Positions 3,109-51,272 of a DNA stretch of 64,000 bases are shown here, in pieces (position 1 is the stretch's first letter; the number at the start of each line of letters is the position of its first letter). The position numbers were made by a program, and so were the translations under genes. The stretch is taken from assembly GCF_004115745.1 (NCBI RefSeq), contig NZ_QXIL01000002.1, forward strand, positions 124,001 through 188,000. The letters are read 5' to 3'. The notes beneath the pieces were generated by a model. It made no database searches and was not told the DNA's origin. It saw only the letters and a program-made list of their open reading frames with translations. This DNA comes from Levilactobacillus suantsaii. GTDB taxonomy: Bacteria > Bacillota > Bacilli > Lactobacillales > Lactobacillaceae.

Positions 3109-4308
3109 TTAACTATTTTGGGCTTTGACGGCTAACTGCCGGTGGAAAATCAGGTAGACTAAGGCGGTCAACGGCACCGTAATCATCAACGCGGGATAAA
3201 AAGTAGGCAATGGTAAGGCATCAAACAACGCCCCGCCAATGACTGGCCCTAAAATCATCCCCGTATCCATGCCGATATAAAAGGTACTGTTAGCAAGTCC
3301 CTGTTCGTCTAACGGGGCAATCAGCAAAGCGGTAGCCTGACACACAGAGTACATGACCCCGTAGCCCCCAGCTAATCCCGCCGCGGCCAAAACCATCCAC
3401 CAATTATTCGTCAGATAGGTCAGTCCCATCATACCAATCAAGTTACAAATACTTCCAATCAACAGAAACCACTTAAAAGCGACCCGATCAAAATAGTCCT
3501 TAAAGACCAGTCGTACCACCAAGAGAATGATGGCGTAGATGATAAAGAAGCTTCCGGACGAGACTGGTAACTGCCGAGCCGCCACGTACTCGACGATATA
3601 GGATTGTGTCGCAAAATACGGAATCGACAACAACATCAAGATGATGGCTATCGGGATGACTTTCGGTTGAACAATTCGAAACCGAGGTTCTGCCGCCTTT
3701 TTCGTTACTTGAGTCCGTGGTTGGTACGGGCGACCACGATTGATCACAAATTGAATCAGGATTAAAAGGACCGCACTAAACGCTGTAGAACACAGAAAGG
3801 CGACCCGATAATTGACCTGATGGTAGACCCAGATACCCAAAGCGGGCGCCACGGCCATCCCCAAGGCGTTCATCATGCCATAGTAGCTCATCCCCGCCCC
3901 CATTCGTTCGCGCGGCAAGAGACTTGAAAACCAGGTAGCCAGGCAAATGGAACTTAACGCAAAGCCGAACCCATGAACGATTCGGAAGAAAACTACCATC
4001 CACGGGGCCGTAGCTACTGCGTAGCCAGCCGTGGCCACGACTAAGAGGCCACTACCGATAAACGCCACTTTATACTTGGTAATCTTGTCGACGATTTGGC
4101 CGGCAAACGGGCGAAAAATCAACGAGCACACGTTCATTGCGGCCGTCACGCCACCAGCAATCAAGGTACTGGCCCCCAGGCTTCTAGTGAACCCAACGAT
4201 GATTGGATTGATCAACATTGAGGAACACATATAACAAAAGGTACAAATCAACAAGAGAATAATATCACGTGAAAATAATTTGGTGCTGCCTGTCTCCGAC
4301 TTACTCAC
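3109..4308 (-). CDS. MFS transporter
   Basis: 399-residue major facilitator superfamily permease with about twelve hydrophobic segments. The loop after the second segment carries FRPFAGQIVDKITKYK, a variant of the MFS motif A. The start is GTG at 4308, preceded by AGAAGG at a good distance. It is similar in size to YfcJ/YhhS-like and multidrug or sugar-type permeases, but I cannot assign a substrate. It has its own downstream terminator and lies between the lar operon and the aldo/keto reductase with no evident functional link to either. Confidence 0.82.
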   Translation of the reverse strand: MSKSETGSTKLFSRDIILLLICTFCYMCSSMLINPIIVGFTRSLGASTLIAGGVTAAMNVCSLIFRPFAGQIVDKITKYKVAFIGSGLLVVATAGYAVATAPWMVVFFRIVHGFGFALSSICLATWFSSLLPRERMGAGMSYYGMMNALGMAVAPALGIWVYHQVNYRVAFLCSTAFSAVLLILIQFVINRGRPYQPRTQVTKKAAEPRFRIVQPKVIPIAIILMLLSIPYFATQSYIVEYVAARQLPVSSGSFFIIYAIILLVVRLVFKDYFDRVAFKWFLLIGSICNLIGMMGLTYLTNNWWMVLAAAGLAGGYGVMYSVCQATALLIAPLDEQGLANSTFYIGMDTGMILGPVIGGALFDALPLPTFYPALMITVPLTALVYLIFHRQLAVKAQNS

Positions 4309-4452: not shown

Positions 4453-5280
4453 TTAATCTTCTGAAGTGGTAGTCGTTGCCAATACGTCATTCATATGCCC
4501 ACTGATAAAACCACCTAAATCCACAGAAACATAATCGTAGCCTAATTGCTTTAGCTTTGTATTAATGGCTTCCCGTTGTGCCATTAGAGCACTCATCTGC
4601 TGATTAGGCACCTCAATCCGGGCCAAGTCACCATGAACCCGCACTCGCACGGTCGAGAAACCCAACTGGCGAAGATAGCTTTCAGCTTGCATGACCCGGT
4701 CAATTGCTGTCTGAGTCAGCGTTGTATTATAAGGAAAACGGGATGATACACTGCTCGACGGAACTTTGTTCCAATTACTCAAACCATAATCTTGTGCCAA
4801 TTGTCGCACATCGACTTTAGTAAAGTTTGCAAGAGCTAGTGGACTAACGATTCCTTCTTCATCTCGAGCTTTAAGTCCTGGACGGTAATCCTGCAAATCA
4901 TCTGCAATAATCCCATCAAAAATGACATCAGCCGGATACTGGGCTTTTAAACCATTCATTCGTTGATAGAACAGCTTTTTAGCGGCATACCAACTATTTG
5001 GTGTATTTTGCCGGACATCTTCATTTTTCAAATAAGCCAGCGTTGTGGGAACAACCTGAACACCCAGTTGCTTTCCGAGGGCAACTGCCTGGGTAAATTC
5101 TACATCACTAAAGAGCTCTGAATTAGCCACTATGGCAACGACATTTTTAGTCCCATAAGCTGTAATTGCTGCCTGTAAGACCACGGTACTATCAATTCCG
5201 CCAGAAAAAGCCACCAAAGCTGAGCGATATTGACTTAACACTGTTTGCAATTGTTCTGTTTTATTTGTAACTACGTCCAT
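4453..5280 (-). CDS. larE: LarE-like sulfur transferase (nickel-pincer cofactor synthesis) lacking all cysteines
   Basis: 275 residues, collinear with L. plantarum LarE as I remember that sequence. LarE inserts sulfur into pyridinium-3,5-biscarboxylate mononucleotide to make the thiocarboxylates of the nickel-pincer cofactor. The ATP-pyrophosphatase P-loop is SGGIDS at residues 26-31, and Trp97, Ser180, Arg181, Glu200, Arg212 and Arg214 are present at matching positions. In the characterised enzyme Cys176 gives up its sulfur and becomes dehydroalanine. Here residues 173-180 read VPSSSVSS, so position 176 is Ser (AGC), and there is no Cys anywhere in the protein. The start at 5280 has GGAGG eight bases upstream; a longer frame upstream overlaps larC and lacks this site. 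Last gene of the operon. It may be inactive, may use another sulfur source, or may be supplemented by another LarE. Confidence 0.85.
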   Translation of the reverse strand: MDVVTNKTEQLQTVLSQYRSALVAFSGGIDSTVVLQAAITAYGTKNVVAIVANSELFSDVEFTQAVALGKQLGVQVVPTTLAYLKNEDVRQNTPNSWYAAKKLFYQRMNGLKAQYPADVIFDGIIADDLQDYRPGLKARDEEGIVSPLALANFTKVDVRQLAQDYGLSNWNKVPSSSVSSRFPYNTTLTQTAIDRVMQAESYLRQLGFSTVRVRVHGDLARIEVPNQQMSALMAQREAINTKLKQLGYDYVSVDLGGFISGHMNDVLATTTTSED

Positions 5281-5291
5281 GAAAATTCCTC

Positions 5292-6509
5292 CTAACTTAA
5301 TTGGGCTTGAACCCCTGCCATTACCGTTTCTAACGCGACGTCCAATTTCTGAGCTGCCGTTTGACAATCCTCGTATTCTGGCGTCACTCGGTGAATATCA
5401 TGATAAGTTGCTACCTTTAATCGAATAGGCATCCCCTTGTAAGACACGGTTGTAAAGTGTCGTTTCATGACGGTTCGCGCCATCTGAGTATACCGAATTC
5501 CCTTAGCTGTGGTGTACTTTAACATCGCTGTTACGAGTCGTTCACGGTCATTTTCAGCCGCTAAAACGGTGAGTAAGACACCGGGCCGGGCTTTTTTCAT
5601 CTGAACTGGCGTCACGTAAACATCCAATGCTCCCGCCGTCAGTAATTGTGACTGGGCAAAACCAATACCCTCAGCTGTCTGATCATCGAGATTCGTCTCC
5701 AAGACCCATACCTGATCTTGAGTCGCAACTGTCTCTTTTTGTGACTGCGCAGTCGTTACTACCATGGCTCGTAACGCATTGAAGCGGCCCGTTTCCCGCT
5801 TTCCAAAACCATAGCCAACTTTTTGAACTGCCATTTGTGAATTAAGCGGCCCGAACTCTGTCACAAATTCCTTAACTAGGCCTAATCCTGTGGGCGTCAA
5901 CAATTCCGTATGAATTTCCGGATGTTGTTGAACCGGTATCGGTCGTTCCGTCAACATTTGTGCAACTGCTGGTACTGGTACCGGCATTTCGCCATGTGCA
6001 ACATTGATAAACCCACTACCATCGGCAATCGTTGAGCATTTGATCTGGTCAACATGCAATAAATCTAAACAAATACACGACCCTACGATATCCACAATGG
6101 AATCCAAAGCCCCCACTTCATGAAAATGAACGTTCGTTAGTGGGACCTGATGGACCTGCGATTCCGCCTGTCCAATATCCTGAAAGATTGCAATTGCATG
6201 TTGCTTCACCGTAGCTTTTAAATCACTAGACTGAATGAGTTGGACAATGTCACTCAGGTGACGACCATGGTGATTATGTGGCCCCTCAACAAACCCATGA
6301 TCCTTGGTACCACGGTCAAGGACTACATCAAAATTAGTCCCGTAAATGGCACTTTTAGCTGTCCGTTCAGCCTGCAAAGTATACCCCGTCACATGCAGCT
6401 GTTTTAGAGCTACTTCCAGGTCGCTTAACTTCACCCCTAAGTCTAAAAGAGCCCCAATAAACATGTCACCACTCACGCCAGAAAAAGCATCTAAGTAAAG
6501 TGTTCGCAT
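5292..6509 (-). CDS. larC: Nickel-pincer cofactor synthase LarC, single full-length protein
   Basis: 405-residue LarC, the CTP-dependent cyclometallase that inserts nickel into the pincer ligand. The N-terminus MRTLYLDAFSGVSGDM is the family signature. A histidine-rich nickel-binding segment, HNHHGRHL, lies near residues 79-86, HFHEVGALDSIVDI follows, and ETNLDDQTAEG begins the C-terminal half. In L. plantarum the gene is split into larC1 and larC2 joined by ribosomal frameshifting; here it is one continuous frame. larB ends five bases upstream, and larE starts eleven bases downstream. The start ATG at 6509 directly follows larB. Confidence 0.93.
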   Translation of the reverse strand: MRTLYLDAFSGVSGDMFIGALLDLGVKLSDLEVALKQLHVTGYTLQAERTAKSAIYGTNFDVVLDRGTKDHGFVEGPHNHHGRHLSDIVQLIQSSDLKATVKQHAIAIFQDIGQAESQVHQVPLTNVHFHEVGALDSIVDIVGSCICLDLLHVDQIKCSTIADGSGFINVAHGEMPVPVPAVAQMLTERPIPVQQHPEIHTELLTPTGLGLVKEFVTEFGPLNSQMAVQKVGYGFGKRETGRFNALRAMVVTTAQSQKETVATQDQVWVLETNLDDQTAEGIGFAQSQLLTAGALDVYVTPVQMKKARPGVLLTVLAAENDRERLVTAMLKYTTAKGIRYTQMARTVMKRHFTTVSYKGMPIRLKVATYHDIHRVTPEYEDCQTAAQKLDVALETVMAGVQAQLS

Positions 6510-6514
6510 TTCAT

Positions 6515-7264
6515 CTACCCCTTCAAATGATTCATCACACTTGCCGCGTAGGCCGCACCAAAGCCATTATCGATATTGACAACGGTGACGCCCTCCGCAC
6601 AACTATTCAACATAGTCAAGAGTGCACTTAACCCATGATAACTGCTACCATACCCAACGCTCGTGGGTAACGCAATAACTGGGCTGGCAACTAAACCGCC
6701 AACAACACTAGCAAAAGCTCCGTCCATTCCAGCAGCAACGATGACGACCTTGGCCTGCCGGATTGCATCTAACTTAGCAAATAGCCGGTGAATACCCGCA
6801 ACACCCACGTCATACACACGTTCAATCTGATTACCGAAGACTTTTGCGGTCACTGCCGCCTCTTCGGCAACAGATAGATCCGACGTTCCAGCCGTCACAA
6901 TAGCAATCGTCGTTGGGGTAACTTCAGTCGGTAATGCTCCGTTTACTAAGCAACGTGCTATTGGAAAATAACATAAATTAGGCAATTGCCGTTTCACTAA
7001 TTTAGCTTTAGAGGCCGTTATTCGCGTGCCCAAAACGGTTTGGCCTTGCTGGGTAAACTGCCGCATAATATCAATAATTTGGTCCGCTGTTTTCCCTTCA
7101 CCAAATACGGTCTCTGGGTACCCAGTCCGCTGTTGACGATCAAAATCCAGATTAGTTATTTCTGCCATTGTCGGCGACGCCGTTAGTTGTTTTAACGCTG
7201 TGGCAACATCTAATTGATGACTTGCTACCGCTTGCAACAACTTTTTCTGATCTTCTTCAGTCAC
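6515..7264 (-). CDS. larB: Pyridinium-3,5-biscarboxylic acid mononucleotide synthase LarB
   Basis: 249-residue LarB, which carboxylates and hydrolyses nicotinic acid adenine dinucleotide in the first step of nickel-pincer cofactor synthesis. The C-terminal half resembles the AIR carboxylase Pur[16 protein letters not shown], then [16 protein letters not shown], then [20 protein letters not shown]. The catalytic cysteine region is present as [16 protein letters not shown], with Cys at residue 222 against Cys221 in the L. plantarum enzyme. Thus the missing cysteine of the next enzyme, LarE, is not a general feature of the operon. It lies 12 bases after larA. Confidence 0.93.
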
Positions 7265-7276
7265 CGAGCATTCCTC

Positions 7277-8533
7277 CTAAGCTTGAACCTCTGGTACAGT
7301 CATCGACCCAGCTGGCAACACAATTACACTAGCTTGGTCCCCCTTTTCCGCAACTGCAGCTTGATAAGCCGCTGTTAACTCATGGAATGGCTTAAAGTGC
7401 ACGTTACGCATCTGTTGGTCCGTCAAGTCCGTGACTGCCCAAGTTTGCGCCCAAGTATCAATCTGCGCCATCTTGGCTGCCTTATGATAGCCGAGTTTCC
7501 AACTATGATGAATCTTATCAAGTACTGCCTGAGCATCCTTTTCTGAACTCAAAAGATCATAAAAAGGTTTGGGGCCAATACCCGTTCGGCACTTCGCCAC
7601 TAGAATTAAAATACCGTCGCGTTTAAGAGCTAACTTACCGTTATCCAGGGCTTTTTGTGCCTGATACAGGTCTACGTCCATCGGGTATGGGGCTACTGAA
7701 ATCACAATATCTGCTTTATGTGGAATCCGAACGCCATAAACTTCCTTGGCTTTATCAATTCCCGCATAAAACGACTGGGATAGGTCTCCCGTCGTGACAG
7801 CATAAATGTCATGCTGACTATCCAACACCATTTCAATTGCAAAAATATCAATATCTTTTAAGACCTGCATGGCATCCATCATATCTTCATGAACTGGATT
7901 TCCCTTGAGTTTTAACGCTCTAGCGGAATTCTTTAGAGCCAGGTAATGATTCTCTGAAATCGTTTCATAAGCCGCTACTCCGGGCAAAAATGATTTACGC
8001 CCGCCAGTATAACCAGCAAAATAATGAGGTTCAATCGAACTAATGGGAACCACCTTAGCCGCATCTGCCACAATTTTATTTAGCAACATTTTTGTACCAT
8101 TCGAAGACTTCCCCAAGTACGTCATAGCATCATGATGACAATCATGACTATGGATACGACCTTTTGCCTTTAAGTCCTGGTAAATATCAGCACCAAAAAT
8201 GAAATTATACTCCTCTTCAGTCGGTTCCCGATGCACCCCAGTCGCAACAATAAAATAGATGTTTTTATCCTTAATCTTGGGGTAAATATGCCGTAAAACT
8301 TGTGCTGTAGGGGTCGGCCGCGTACCATCATTAACAATAAAAACTACTCGTTCATTCGTATCCATGAATTTCTCGAAGGAATCCGTTTCAAATGGATTAG
8401 CCAAGGCTTGATCGATTGCGGTATCAGCATCAACCTTATCCACATGATTCGGGTTAAACACCCCCGTCAGTTGATTGTCAGCAATGTCAACGTGAAAAGC
8501 ATCTGATTTTCCATAAGGCACTTTAATTTGCAA
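7277..8533 (-). CDS. larA: LarA-family nickel-dependent 2-hydroxyacid racemase
   Basis: 418-residue member of the LarA superfamily, enzymes that racemise or epimerise 2-hydroxyacids by hydride transfer to the nickel-pincer nucleotide. The catalytic layout is intact. Lys180 (in GGRKSFLPG), which bonds the cofactor, is flanked by His170 (IEPHYFAGYTGG) and His196 (SENHYLAL). His101 (ATGVHREPTEEE) and the NDGTRPTPT segment with Asp69 and Arg72 correspond to the substrate and hydride-site residues. The NDGTRPTPT form differs from the SDHTRP form I recall for the L. plantarum lactate racemase and resembles homologues acting on other hydroxyacids, so lactate as substrate is unproven. Second gene of the operon, behind the nickel transporter. 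Confidence 0.88.
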   Translation of the reverse strand: MQIKVPYGKSDAFHVDIADNQLTGVFNPNHVDKVDADTAIDQALANPFETDSFEKFMDTNERVVFIVNDGTRPTPTAQVLRHIYPKIKDKNIYFIVATGVHREPTEEEYNFIFGADIYQDLKAKGRIHSHDCHHDAMTYLGKSSNGTKMLLNKIVADAAKVVPISSIEPHYFAGYTGGRKSFLPGVAAYETISENHYLALKNSARALKLKGNPVHEDMMDAMQVLKDIDIFAIEMVLDSQHDIYAVTTGDLSQSFYAGIDKAKEVYGVRIPHKADIVISVAPYPMDVDLYQAQKALDNGKLALKRDGILILVAKCRTGIGPKPFYDLLSSEKDAQAVLDKIHHSWKLGYHKAAKMAQIDTWAQTWAVTDLTDQQMRNVHFKPFHELTAAYQAAVAEKGDQASVIVLPAGSMTVPEVQA

Positions 8534-8555
8534 AAAACCATCTCCTTAATCTGTA

Positions 8556-9569
8556 CTAATTTTGTATTGCATCATCCTTTTTCCCAACACCAAGGTAATG
8601 CCACCCAAGTAGTGCAACCACCCACAAAACAATAAACAAACTGACAAGGCCTACTCCTAAGTGAAAGAAGTTAAGCCCTGATACCCAAGAAATTAATGGA
8701 CTATGGACTTTAAACACTAGCTTAGCCGCTAACAAGAGATTCACACTGCCTGCAAACAACGCTGCTCCGACGGACACCGCTGTTAAAACCAAGTTATAGT
8801 AGACTTTCCGTATTGGAGACGCGAATACCCAGGCATAAGCAGTACTCATAAATAGGCCATCACTAGTATCCAAAAGACACATCCCCGCCATAAACAATAA
8901 GGGAAAGGAGAGGACCGCATACCAAGGAACCCCCTGACTAGTCGTAATGGCAGACGTCGCCAATACCGCAATTTGCGATGCCGTATCGAACCCTAATCCG
9001 AATAAAAAGCCAATACCGATTACTTGCCAATTATGATTAATCAAATGTAATCCCCGCTCAAAAATTCGATAAATAATCGATTTTTTTACCTGAACTGAAG
9101 CCTGTGGATGTTTGGCTCGCCGAAAATCGTGCCAAATGTGATGCAAAAGAACTAAGTTAACCACTGCTAATAAAATTAAGGTGATTCCTGCAAAAGTTGT
9201 GCCAATCACACCGCCGAGACGCTGAAAATCTGGTAACCGTCGTTTCGACCAGGTCACAAATAAAATAGTTGCTACGGCCATCAACATAACGACGGATGAA
9301 TGACCCAGAGAAAAAGCAAAACCTACGCCGTGCGTATTCCGTCCTTCATTAATCATCTTTCGCGTAATATTATCTATAGCCGTGATATGATCTACATCAA
9401 AAGCATGTTGTAAGCCTAACGTAAAGGCTACGACTGCCATAGATAATAGCGCCGGGTACTGTCGCATATAAGAAACCGCTAACATTATTCCTGTAACCAA
9501 GAAGACTAACACAATTCCACCATATTTAGCGATATCGGGTCCTAACGGATAACGTCGATAATTCTCCAA
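8556..9569 (-). CDS. NiCoT-family nickel/cobalt permease
   Basis: 337-residue NiCoT permease with about eight hydrophobic segments. The diagnostic HX4DH motif is in segment II as HAFDVDHI. Further family marks are FSLGHSSVV and LFGLGFDTASQIAVL. It imports Ni2+ for the nickel-pincer enzyme encoded next door. In L. plantarum the lar locus instead uses an ECF-type larMNQO importer, so this is a functional substitution. The start is TTG at 9569 with AAGGAGATGG upstream. It is the first gene of the lar operon and lies 22 bases before larA. Specificity for nickel over cobalt is inferred from context. Confidence 0.9.
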   Translation of the reverse strand: MENYRRYPLGPDIAKYGGIVLVFLVTGIMLAVSYMRQYPALLSMAVVAFTLGLQHAFDVDHITAIDNITRKMINEGRNTHGVGFAFSLGHSSVVMLMAVATILFVTWSKRRLPDFQRLGGVIGTTFAGITLILLAVVNLVLLHHIWHDFRRAKHPQASVQVKKSIIYRIFERGLHLINHNWQVIGIGFLFGLGFDTASQIAVLATSAITTSQGVPWYAVLSFPLLFMAGMCLLDTSDGLFMSTAYAWVFASPIRKVYYNLVLTAVSVGAALFAGSVNLLLAAKLVFKVHSPLISWVSGLNFFHLGVGLVSLFIVLWVVALLGWHYLGVGKKDDAIQN

Positions 9570-10646: not shown

Positions 10647-10759
10647 GTTAAATTCCTCCATAAATCTGTGTTTGTCTGACACCAAGTAAACTTTCCGGGG
10701 CTTATCGTGGGGCAAACAATACCAACGACTATGATACAAAGTTTTCACCTTAAAGTCAA
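10647..10759 (-). promoter_or_regulatory. rplM promoter and candidate L13 leader RNA
   Basis: TTGACT at 10754-10759 and TATCAT at 10731-10736 are 17 bases apart, immediately upstream of rplM and starting within 30 bases of the truA stop. The resulting leader of about 75 nt can pair TGTTTG with CAAACA around a loop of roughly 40 bases just before the ribosome binding site. Autoregulatory L13 leaders are known upstream of rplM in Firmicutes; assignment of this one is by position and pairing only. Confidence 0.5.
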
Positions 10760-45803: not shown

Positions 45804-45877
45804 TCGGGAAGACAAGATTCGAACTTGCGACCTCCACGTCCCGAACGTGGCGCTCTACCAAGCTGAGCTACTTCCCG
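45804..45877 (-). tRNA. tRNA-Pro (anticodon CGG)
   Basis: 74 nt cloverleaf with acceptor CGGGAAG/CTTCCCG, discriminator A, GTTCGAATC T-loop, and anticodon loop TTCGGGA between CCACG and CGTGG. Last tRNA of the operon; CCA is not encoded. Confidence 0.95.
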
Positions 45878-45924
45878 ATAATAAGCCTTACTATGCTATT
45901 GATTAATCGGCAATCACCGGTTAA

Positions 45925-45998
45925 TCGGGAAGACAGGATTCGAACCTGCGACCCCCTGGTCCCAAACCAGGTGCTCTACCAAGCTGAGCTACTTCCCG
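45925..45998 (-). tRNA. tRNA-Pro (anticodon TGG)
   Basis: 74 nt; acceptor identical to the neighbouring CGG isoacceptor, anticodon loop TTTGGGA between CCTGG and CCAGG. The two Pro genes probably arose by tandem duplication. Confidence 0.95.
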
Positions 45999-46034
45999 AG
46001 TCTGCCCATAAACTAGATTTACAAGCGACAAAAA

Positions 46035-46108
46035 TGCACCCAGTAGGAGTCGAACCTACAACCTTCTGATTCGTAGTCAGACACTCTATCCAATTGCGCT
46101 ATGGGTGC
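46035..46108 (-). tRNA. tRNA-Arg (anticodon ACG)
   Basis: 74 nt; acceptor GCACCCA/TGGGTGC, anticodon loop CTACGAA. A34 is the normal TadA inosine substrate in bacteria. Confidence 0.95.
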
Positions 46109-46128
46109 ATAGTCAATATTAAGTTAAA

Positions 46129-46214
46129 TGCCGAGGACCGGGATCGAACCGGTACGGTCATCACTGACCGCAGGATTTTAAGTCCTGTGCGTCTGCCAAT
46201 TCCGCCACCCCGGC
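46129..46214 (-). tRNA. tRNA-Leu (anticodon TAA)
   Basis: 86 nt with a long variable arm (class II); acceptor GCCGGGG/CCTCGGC with one G-U pair, anticodon loop CTTAAAA. Confidence 0.95.
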
Positions 46215-46225
46215 AAAAGGGCAAA

Positions 46226-46297
46226 AGCGGAAGACGGGATTCGAACCCGCGACCCCCACCATGGCAAGGTGATGTTCTACCACTGAACTACTTCCGC
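46226..46297 (-). tRNA. tRNA-Gly (anticodon GCC)
   Basis: 72 nt; acceptor GCGGAAG/CTTCCGC with U discriminator as usual for glycine, anticodon loop TTGCCAT. Confidence 0.95.
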
Positions 46298-46323
46298 ATT
46301 GGCAAATTCAATTAATGGTGCCA

Positions 46324-46396
46324 TGCCGACTAGAGGATTCGAACCTCCGACCTCCTCATTACTAGTGAGATGCTCTGCCAACTGAGCTAAGTCGGC
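46324..46396 (-). tRNA. tRNA-Thr (anticodon AGT)
   Basis: 73 nt; acceptor GCCGACT/AGTCGGC, discriminator A. The anticodon stem is TCTCA/TGAGG and the loop is CTAGTAA, so positions 34-36 are AGT. An A at position 34 outside tRNA-Arg is unusual in bacteria and implies either inosine or unmodified A34. Confidence 0.93.
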
Positions 46397-46431
46397 AAAA
46401 TCATTTAAGATTTTGCAATTACGATGATGAA

Positions 46432-46513
46432 TGCAGGTGAAGGGACTCGAACCCCCACGTCATAAGACACTAGAACCTAAATCTAGCGCGTCTGCCAGTT
46501 CCGCCACACCTGC
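46432..46513 (-). tRNA. tRNA-Leu (anticodon TAG)
   Basis: 82 nt class II tRNA with a long variable arm; acceptor GCAGGTG/CACCTGC, anticodon loop TTTAGGT between CTAGA and TCTAG. Confidence 0.95.
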
Positions 46514-46550
46514 GTAGTGACGATAGTTCCCTTGGGAACCGGAGTCCCGA

Positions 46551-46623
46551 TGGAGGATACAGGGCTCGAACCTGTGACCCTCTGCTTGTAAGGCAGACGC
46601 TCTCCCAACTGAGCTAATCCTCC
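46551..46623 (-). tRNA. tRNA-Val (anticodon TAC)
   Basis: 73 nt; acceptor GGAGGAT/ATCCTCC, anticodon loop CTTACAA. First tRNA of the eight-gene operon (Val, Leu, Thr, Gly, Leu, Arg, Pro, Pro). Confidence 0.95.
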
Positions 46624-51023: not shown

Positions 51024-51272
51024 AAAAAATCTCTTTCGCAAAGTGGCTTCACGAAAGAGATTGGAAGTTAAAATCCAAGTCAATATCGTTGAAAGCGCCC
51101 CGCAACCCCTATTCGGTTGCGACAGTCCCTGATTTATTCAACCAGGACCCAACCCCAATCACGGTCGGTGATTAAGATTTCGGCGATCGCCCCTTTCGCT
51201 TCCCGTCATCGGTGTGGCCCACCTCGGAAAAGCAACTCATGTTGATCGCGCCTCTTCTATTCGATACTTCGT
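51024..51272 (-). promoter_or_regulatory. Lysine riboswitch (L box) with terminator
   Basis: The aptamer spans about 51091-51262. On the minus strand it shows the conserved AGAGGCGCGATC, then GGGGCGATCGCCGAAATC, TAATCACC, TGGTT segments and GGGACTGTCGC, all in L-box order. It is followed by a strong terminator (51024-51062): ATCTCTTTCG/CGAAAGAGAT then TTTTTT. Lysine binding should favour the terminator and shut off the permease. Confidence 0.93.

Follow-up and report, generated by a model that had tools for sequence, protein, structure and literature searches.

The LarE protein of Levilactobacillus suantsaii carries a serine at position 176, where LarE of the sacrificial type has its sulfur-donating cysteine, and none of its 275 residues is a cysteine. 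The comparisons described below argue that function was probably lost very recently, through a missense change at codon 176, in a nickel-pincer operon that the host can dispense with. In L. plantarum, LarE adenylylates a carboxylate of P2CMN, after which Cys176 attacks and yields its sulfur, becoming dehydroalanine (available parts of PMC9283937 and PMC11796402).

The larE gene and its codon 176

Within the window, the whole analysed stretch of 64,000 nucleotides, larE (4453..5280, minus strand) is a frame of 275 codons with an ATG start at 5280 and a stop that ends at 4453. Its product matches the TIGR00268 profile with 331 bits (cut-off 150) over profile positions 2-259 of 259, harbors the PP-loop motif SGGxDS together with S180, R212 and R214, and is encoded in an operon with larA, larB and larC, all of which mark it as a LarE by descent, a member of the PP-loop sulfur transferase family. 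The local frame reads AAT TGG AAC AAA GTT CCG TCG AGC AGT GTA TCA TCC CGT TTT, in which AGC (4753..4755, minus strand; GCT on the plus strand) is codon 176. Residues 6-269 pair gaplessly in phmmer alignments with residues 6-269 of both 5udq and 6b2o, and the numbering of position 176 is therefore exact. The strings around the site are KVASCSVSSRF in wild-type L. plantarum, KVASASVSSRF in 6b2o and VPSSSVSSRF in the window protein. The first-pass annotation, which had read AGC at codon 176 and a protein devoid of cysteine, is thus borne out by frame, translation and alignment. The same holds for the residues that it had listed as kept: SGGIDS (26-31), W97, S180, R181, E200, R212 and R214 are all retained, and they are invariant in an alignment of 20 sequences. 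An AlphaFold2 model built on this alignment (pLDDT 85.8, pTM 0.83, with low confidence for residues 260-275) finds only LarE among the 50 PDB chains listed as its structural matches; this only confirms the fold.

The window protein most resembles the LarE of L. plantarum (5udq; 15 PDB entries carry the same sequence), with a sequence E-value of 1.7e-86 and TM-scores by query length of 0.76-0.84 among the matches listed. The two share the length register, the PP-loop, W97, S180, R181, E200, R212 and R214, and their operon partners are alike, but Cys176 is the sulfur source of the L. plantarum enzyme and its place is taken by Ser176 here. The C176A variant (6b2o) also lacks the sulfur-donating thiol and was crystallised with the LarE fold; it is a laboratory alanine variant, however, whereas the window protein is a natural serine form in a genome in which no other LarE was found. 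A second type of LarE, represented by Thermotoga maritima, belongs to the same family and performs the same conversion of P2CMN to P2TMN as the L. plantarum enzyme. In that type, a CXXC motif and a cysteine one place after 176 hold a [4Fe-4S] cluster, according to the available part of PMC9283937. None of these three cluster cysteines is present in the window protein, whose residues 92-100, the region that holds the CXXC in 87 class proteins with Cys177, read NTPNSWYAA. The claim of the first-pass annotation that neither Cys176 nor the iron-sulfur ligands are available thus stands.

Residue 176 in other LarE proteins

The distribution of the residue was followed in two sets of relatives. A search of the genus found a LarE match (E<=1e-10) in 4/35 genomes, that of the window counted, and a draw from the family found one (E<=1e-20) in 76/397 genomes. 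The family set comprises all 85 matches of both searches apart from the window protein; they form 71 clusters at 95% identity. Cys176 is present in 85/85 of these proteins (codon TGT in 47, TGC in 38) and CXXC in 0/85. Between residues 8 and 268, 57 columns are invariant across the 85 relatives, Cys176 among them, and the window protein differs at 1/57, by C176S only. Deviations at a single otherwise invariant column are found in five of the 85 relatives, never at 176. The class set consists of 109 further LarE matches (E<=1e-40), all of them read, from a draw of 398 genomes. Here 87/109 have CXXC together with Cys177 (residue 176 being Ala in 85 and Ser in 2), 20/109 have Cys176 without CXXC, one is a partial protein with Cys177 and no CXXC, which brings the Cys177 total to 88/109, and one is a fragment that ends short of the site. 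Cys176 is thus found in 20 of the 21 class relatives without CXXC in which the site is visible, the partial protein with Cys177 being the other. The two class proteins with Ser176 were considered as a parallel to the window protein and rejected, as both have CXXC and Cys177.

The first-pass annotation had proposed a listing of LarE proteins that lack cysteine at 176. Such a list is empty for the family (0/85), and the exceptions in the class carry Cys177, apart from the fragment that stops before the site; across both sets, 0/193 proteins that show the site lack cysteine at both 176 and 177. An exact pattern of the Cys176-type site with a codon 176 that does not begin with T, a design that passes over TCN serine codons, was also scanned through genome_contigs (84,980 species, possibly excluding the window's own record). 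It returned three stretches and no Cys176-type case, all three being Bacteroidales LarE of the CXXC-C kind with proline at this position and cysteine next to it. In viral contigs one stretch fitted a pattern and none was confirmed as LarE. Among the papers listed in literature searches that reached largely outside subscription journals, none is, by title and opening of the abstract, about a natural cysteine-less or C176S LarE, and no listed paper that mentions LarE contains “C176A” or “C176S”. Ser176 is private to the Levilactobacillus suantsaii genome among the LarE sequences read.

A private change at an otherwise invariant residue raises the question of whether AGC is a base-call or assembly error that conceals Cys176, and with it an ordinary LarE, in the living strain. 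AGC is one base from TGC, residue 176 is otherwise invariant in the family, and the change is seen in a single genome, a draft of 70 contigs (2,430,870 bases, 2.43 Mb). On the other side, the listed completeness of the assembly is 99.88% and its contamination 0.88%, and no stop or frameshift interrupts any of the five block genes in the window. Consensus errors in bacterial genomes are, moreover, usually rarer than real private variants of a strain. Such an error is thus unlikely, and less likely than a recent loss of function. The idea that the adjacent codons 175 and 176 had both changed, in tandem, was also considered and rejected: TCG at codon 175 is found in 1/85 relatives, yet TCG makes up 13/90 of the serine codons of the block, and its rarity at this site therefore carries no weight.

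The nicT-larABCE block and its sister loci

The larE gene is the last of a minus-strand block (4453-9569) that begins with a nicT-like gene for a NiCoT nickel/cobalt transporter (8556..9569), recognised by sister synteny and by matches to NF052500 and TIGR00802 that are both under the curated cut-offs. It is followed by a larA homologue (7277..8533), by larB, encoding P2CMN synthase (6515..7264; NF033503, 294 bits, cut-off 175; aligned to 7mj0), and by larC, encoding the nickel insertion protein of 405 amino acids (5292..6509; TIGR00299, 208.5 bits against 90; NF052512, 137.2 against 50; relatives 12bi and 6bwo). Directly downstream of larE lies an MFS transporter gene (3109..4308, minus strand; PF07690), an order that is the same in both sister species. 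In L. plantarum, larC1 and larC2 are joined by a programmed frameshift; larC is one continuous 405-aa frame here and does not need it. Other minus-strand elements of the window are an eight-tRNA cluster (45804-46623), a lysine riboswitch (51085-51264) and an L13 leader (10665-10723).

By hand numbering on the alignment to 5huq, LarA retains the equivalents of D72, R75, H108, H174, K184, H200 and K298, which serve cofactor binding and catalysis in LarA (available part of PMC7583248). Opposite W358-T359 of LarA1 (5huq) it has H-K, as in the HK of Mar2, and a Q precedes K298. Both features belong to the malate racemase pattern (PMC11770544 and PMC7583248, in the parts available), in which LarAH5 and LarAH6 have H/Q and K at W358 and T359, and the residues suggest that the operon probably serves a malate racemase. 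This specificity stays a prediction, because the protein falls under both curated malate racemase cut-offs (NF052593, 384.7 bits against 500; NF052595, 283 against 462). Window LarA is below all curated cut-offs; it may be akin to lactobacillar LarAH4, for which no activity was found in the case of L. zymae (available part of PMC7583248).

LarB retains the equivalent of C221 and has Asp at the equivalent of E180, as in both sister operons; both positions have known roles in LarB. The first-pass annotation had held that LarA and LarB keep their catalytic residues and that this argues against long-term decay of the operon. Both points are upheld, by the seven LarA equivalents, by C221 of LarB and by the Asp that the sisters have in common with it. 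Long-term decay was likewise rejected on the state of the genes, with no stops in the five genes of the window block and, by eye, intact-looking start codons and ribosome sites. The TTG start of larA is common to both sisters, and the lone stop in the sister larB rows is the normal end, one codon before the cut stretch ends. A scan for promoters and terminators stayed below the averages for shuffled sequence (8 matches vs 11.2 and 3 vs 5.0).

Two further species of the genus have the same nicT-larA-larB-larC-larE block, between rpsI (named by eye) and the MFS gene. Their larE orthologues at this locus are 83% and 80% identical to that of the window, and both have TGC (Cys) at codon 176. Since the closest orthologues keep the cysteine, the change in the window larE looks recent, as this comparison of genes suggests. 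Most window-to-sister dN/dS estimates over the five block genes are undefined, presumably from saturated synonymous sites, and protein branch lengths were therefore used instead. The window branch measures 0.127 for larE, which lies within the range of its partners (larA, 0.114; larC, 0.183; nicT, 0.223; larB, 0.272), and thus gives no sign of long relaxed constraint. In larE, 13 changes are private to the window against 3 common to both sisters, and the excess of private changes leans the same way in the other four block genes. The GC3 of the block is 0.36-0.43, against a mean of 0.56 (sd 0.08) for the large frames of the window, four block genes included, and 0.70-0.81 for its syntenic counterpart in both sisters. 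With GC3 below both, it is possible that a low-GC donor supplied the present block in place of an earlier one.

Probable loss of function and other readings

The reading to which we assign most weight is that an ordinary, sacrificial LarE of the L. plantarum type has recently exchanged its sulfur-donating Cys176 for serine, by a one-base change if the ancestor shared the TGC codon of the sister species. The mutant LarE would fold, bind ATP and probably still adenylylate P2CMN, but, lacking a thiol, it could neither attack the acyl-adenylate nor donate sulfur. P2TMN and the nickel-pincer cofactor would then not be made, LarA would remain an apoenzyme, and the operon would be phenotypically off and going to decay. 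The C176A form of LarE, in work by Fellner in 2018, is reportedly inactive. Because 4/35 genomes of the genus carry larE, the gene is dispensable there, and lesions of larE are not rare in the class: in the Bacilli set, 2/109 have one internal stop each (L201/G455 and L202/G672), and a further 3/109 are partial, covering part of the model (G421, G520 and G427).

The first-pass annotation had offered a different sulfur donor, a second LarE elsewhere or recent loss of function, and the last of these is the best supported, given Cys176 in the closest orthologues and the intact remainder of gene and operon. A second LarE finds no support, as the assembly contains a single LarE by protein search (one match at E<=10) and by HMM search (one match above the cut-off of 150), as well as a single LarA; three other HMM matches were rejected at 16-21 bits over 63-69 model positions and are probably other PP-loop enzymes. 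A lost plasmid bearing larE is nevertheless conceivable, because other lactobacilli have plasmid-borne larE (of 99 matching plasmid records, 3 are from Lactiplantibacillus and 11 from Lacticaseibacillus). Complementation by a cysteine-bearing LarE on such DNA missing from the assembly, or a retained sulfur-free use of the window protein such as the adenylylation of P2CMN, would agree with the intact ATP and substrate sites. Against this pair of explanations stand the single LarE and LarA of the assembly and, for the second, the fact that adenylylated P2CMN has no known use; together they are distinctly improbable.

The intact remainder of larE and of the operon means that either the change is very late or the protein still matters, and these data cannot separate the two, as conservation elsewhere would look identical if the serine form still worked under selection. 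In that event Ser176 might itself attack the acyl-adenylate, the resulting ester might be eliminated to dehydroalanine, and sulfide or a persulfide might then add to it and yield Cys176, which would give up its sulfur in the usual way; or free sulfide might attack the acyl-adenylate directly. Every ATP and substrate residue is retained, neither larE nor its partner genes have decayed, and CoA persulfide is said, again from the work of Fellner in 2018, to restore the dehydroalanine form of LarE in part. L. plantarum LarE is known to end up in the dehydroalanine form, and exogenous sulfide serves some PP-loop enzymes, albeit ones with an Fe-S cluster (both from the available part of PMC9283937). 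However, the change is seen in one genome only, 193/193 other LarE that show the site have Cys at 176 or 177, and none of seven neighbouring genes scanned with profiles is a sulfur carrier or desulfurase. The reported inactivity of C176A moreover implies that free sulfide alone is insufficient there. A working serine form is thus highly improbable, and the different donor of the first-pass annotation has gained no positive evidence. More speculative still, and at best a very faint prospect, is that Ser176 serves as a pro-dehydroalanine residue, LarE itself eliminating the seryl ester and a cellular donor recharging it to cysteine, so that the enzyme turns over; if true, this would connect the end state of the sacrificial enzyme with a catalytic cycle.

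The window LarE is therefore a clean test case and not a demonstrated new mechanism. If Ser176 is a recent null allele, as in the preferred reading of a loss of function, it is a natural one-residue knock-out of a LarE that is complete but for its sulfur, in a genome in which one LarE and one LarA were found. Such an allele would be useful for asking whether the nickel-pincer operon matters to the bacterium that carries it, and whether sulfur in vivo comes from Cys176 alone. If, on the other hand, the strain still makes the cofactor, the sacrificial model needs a new sulfur route.
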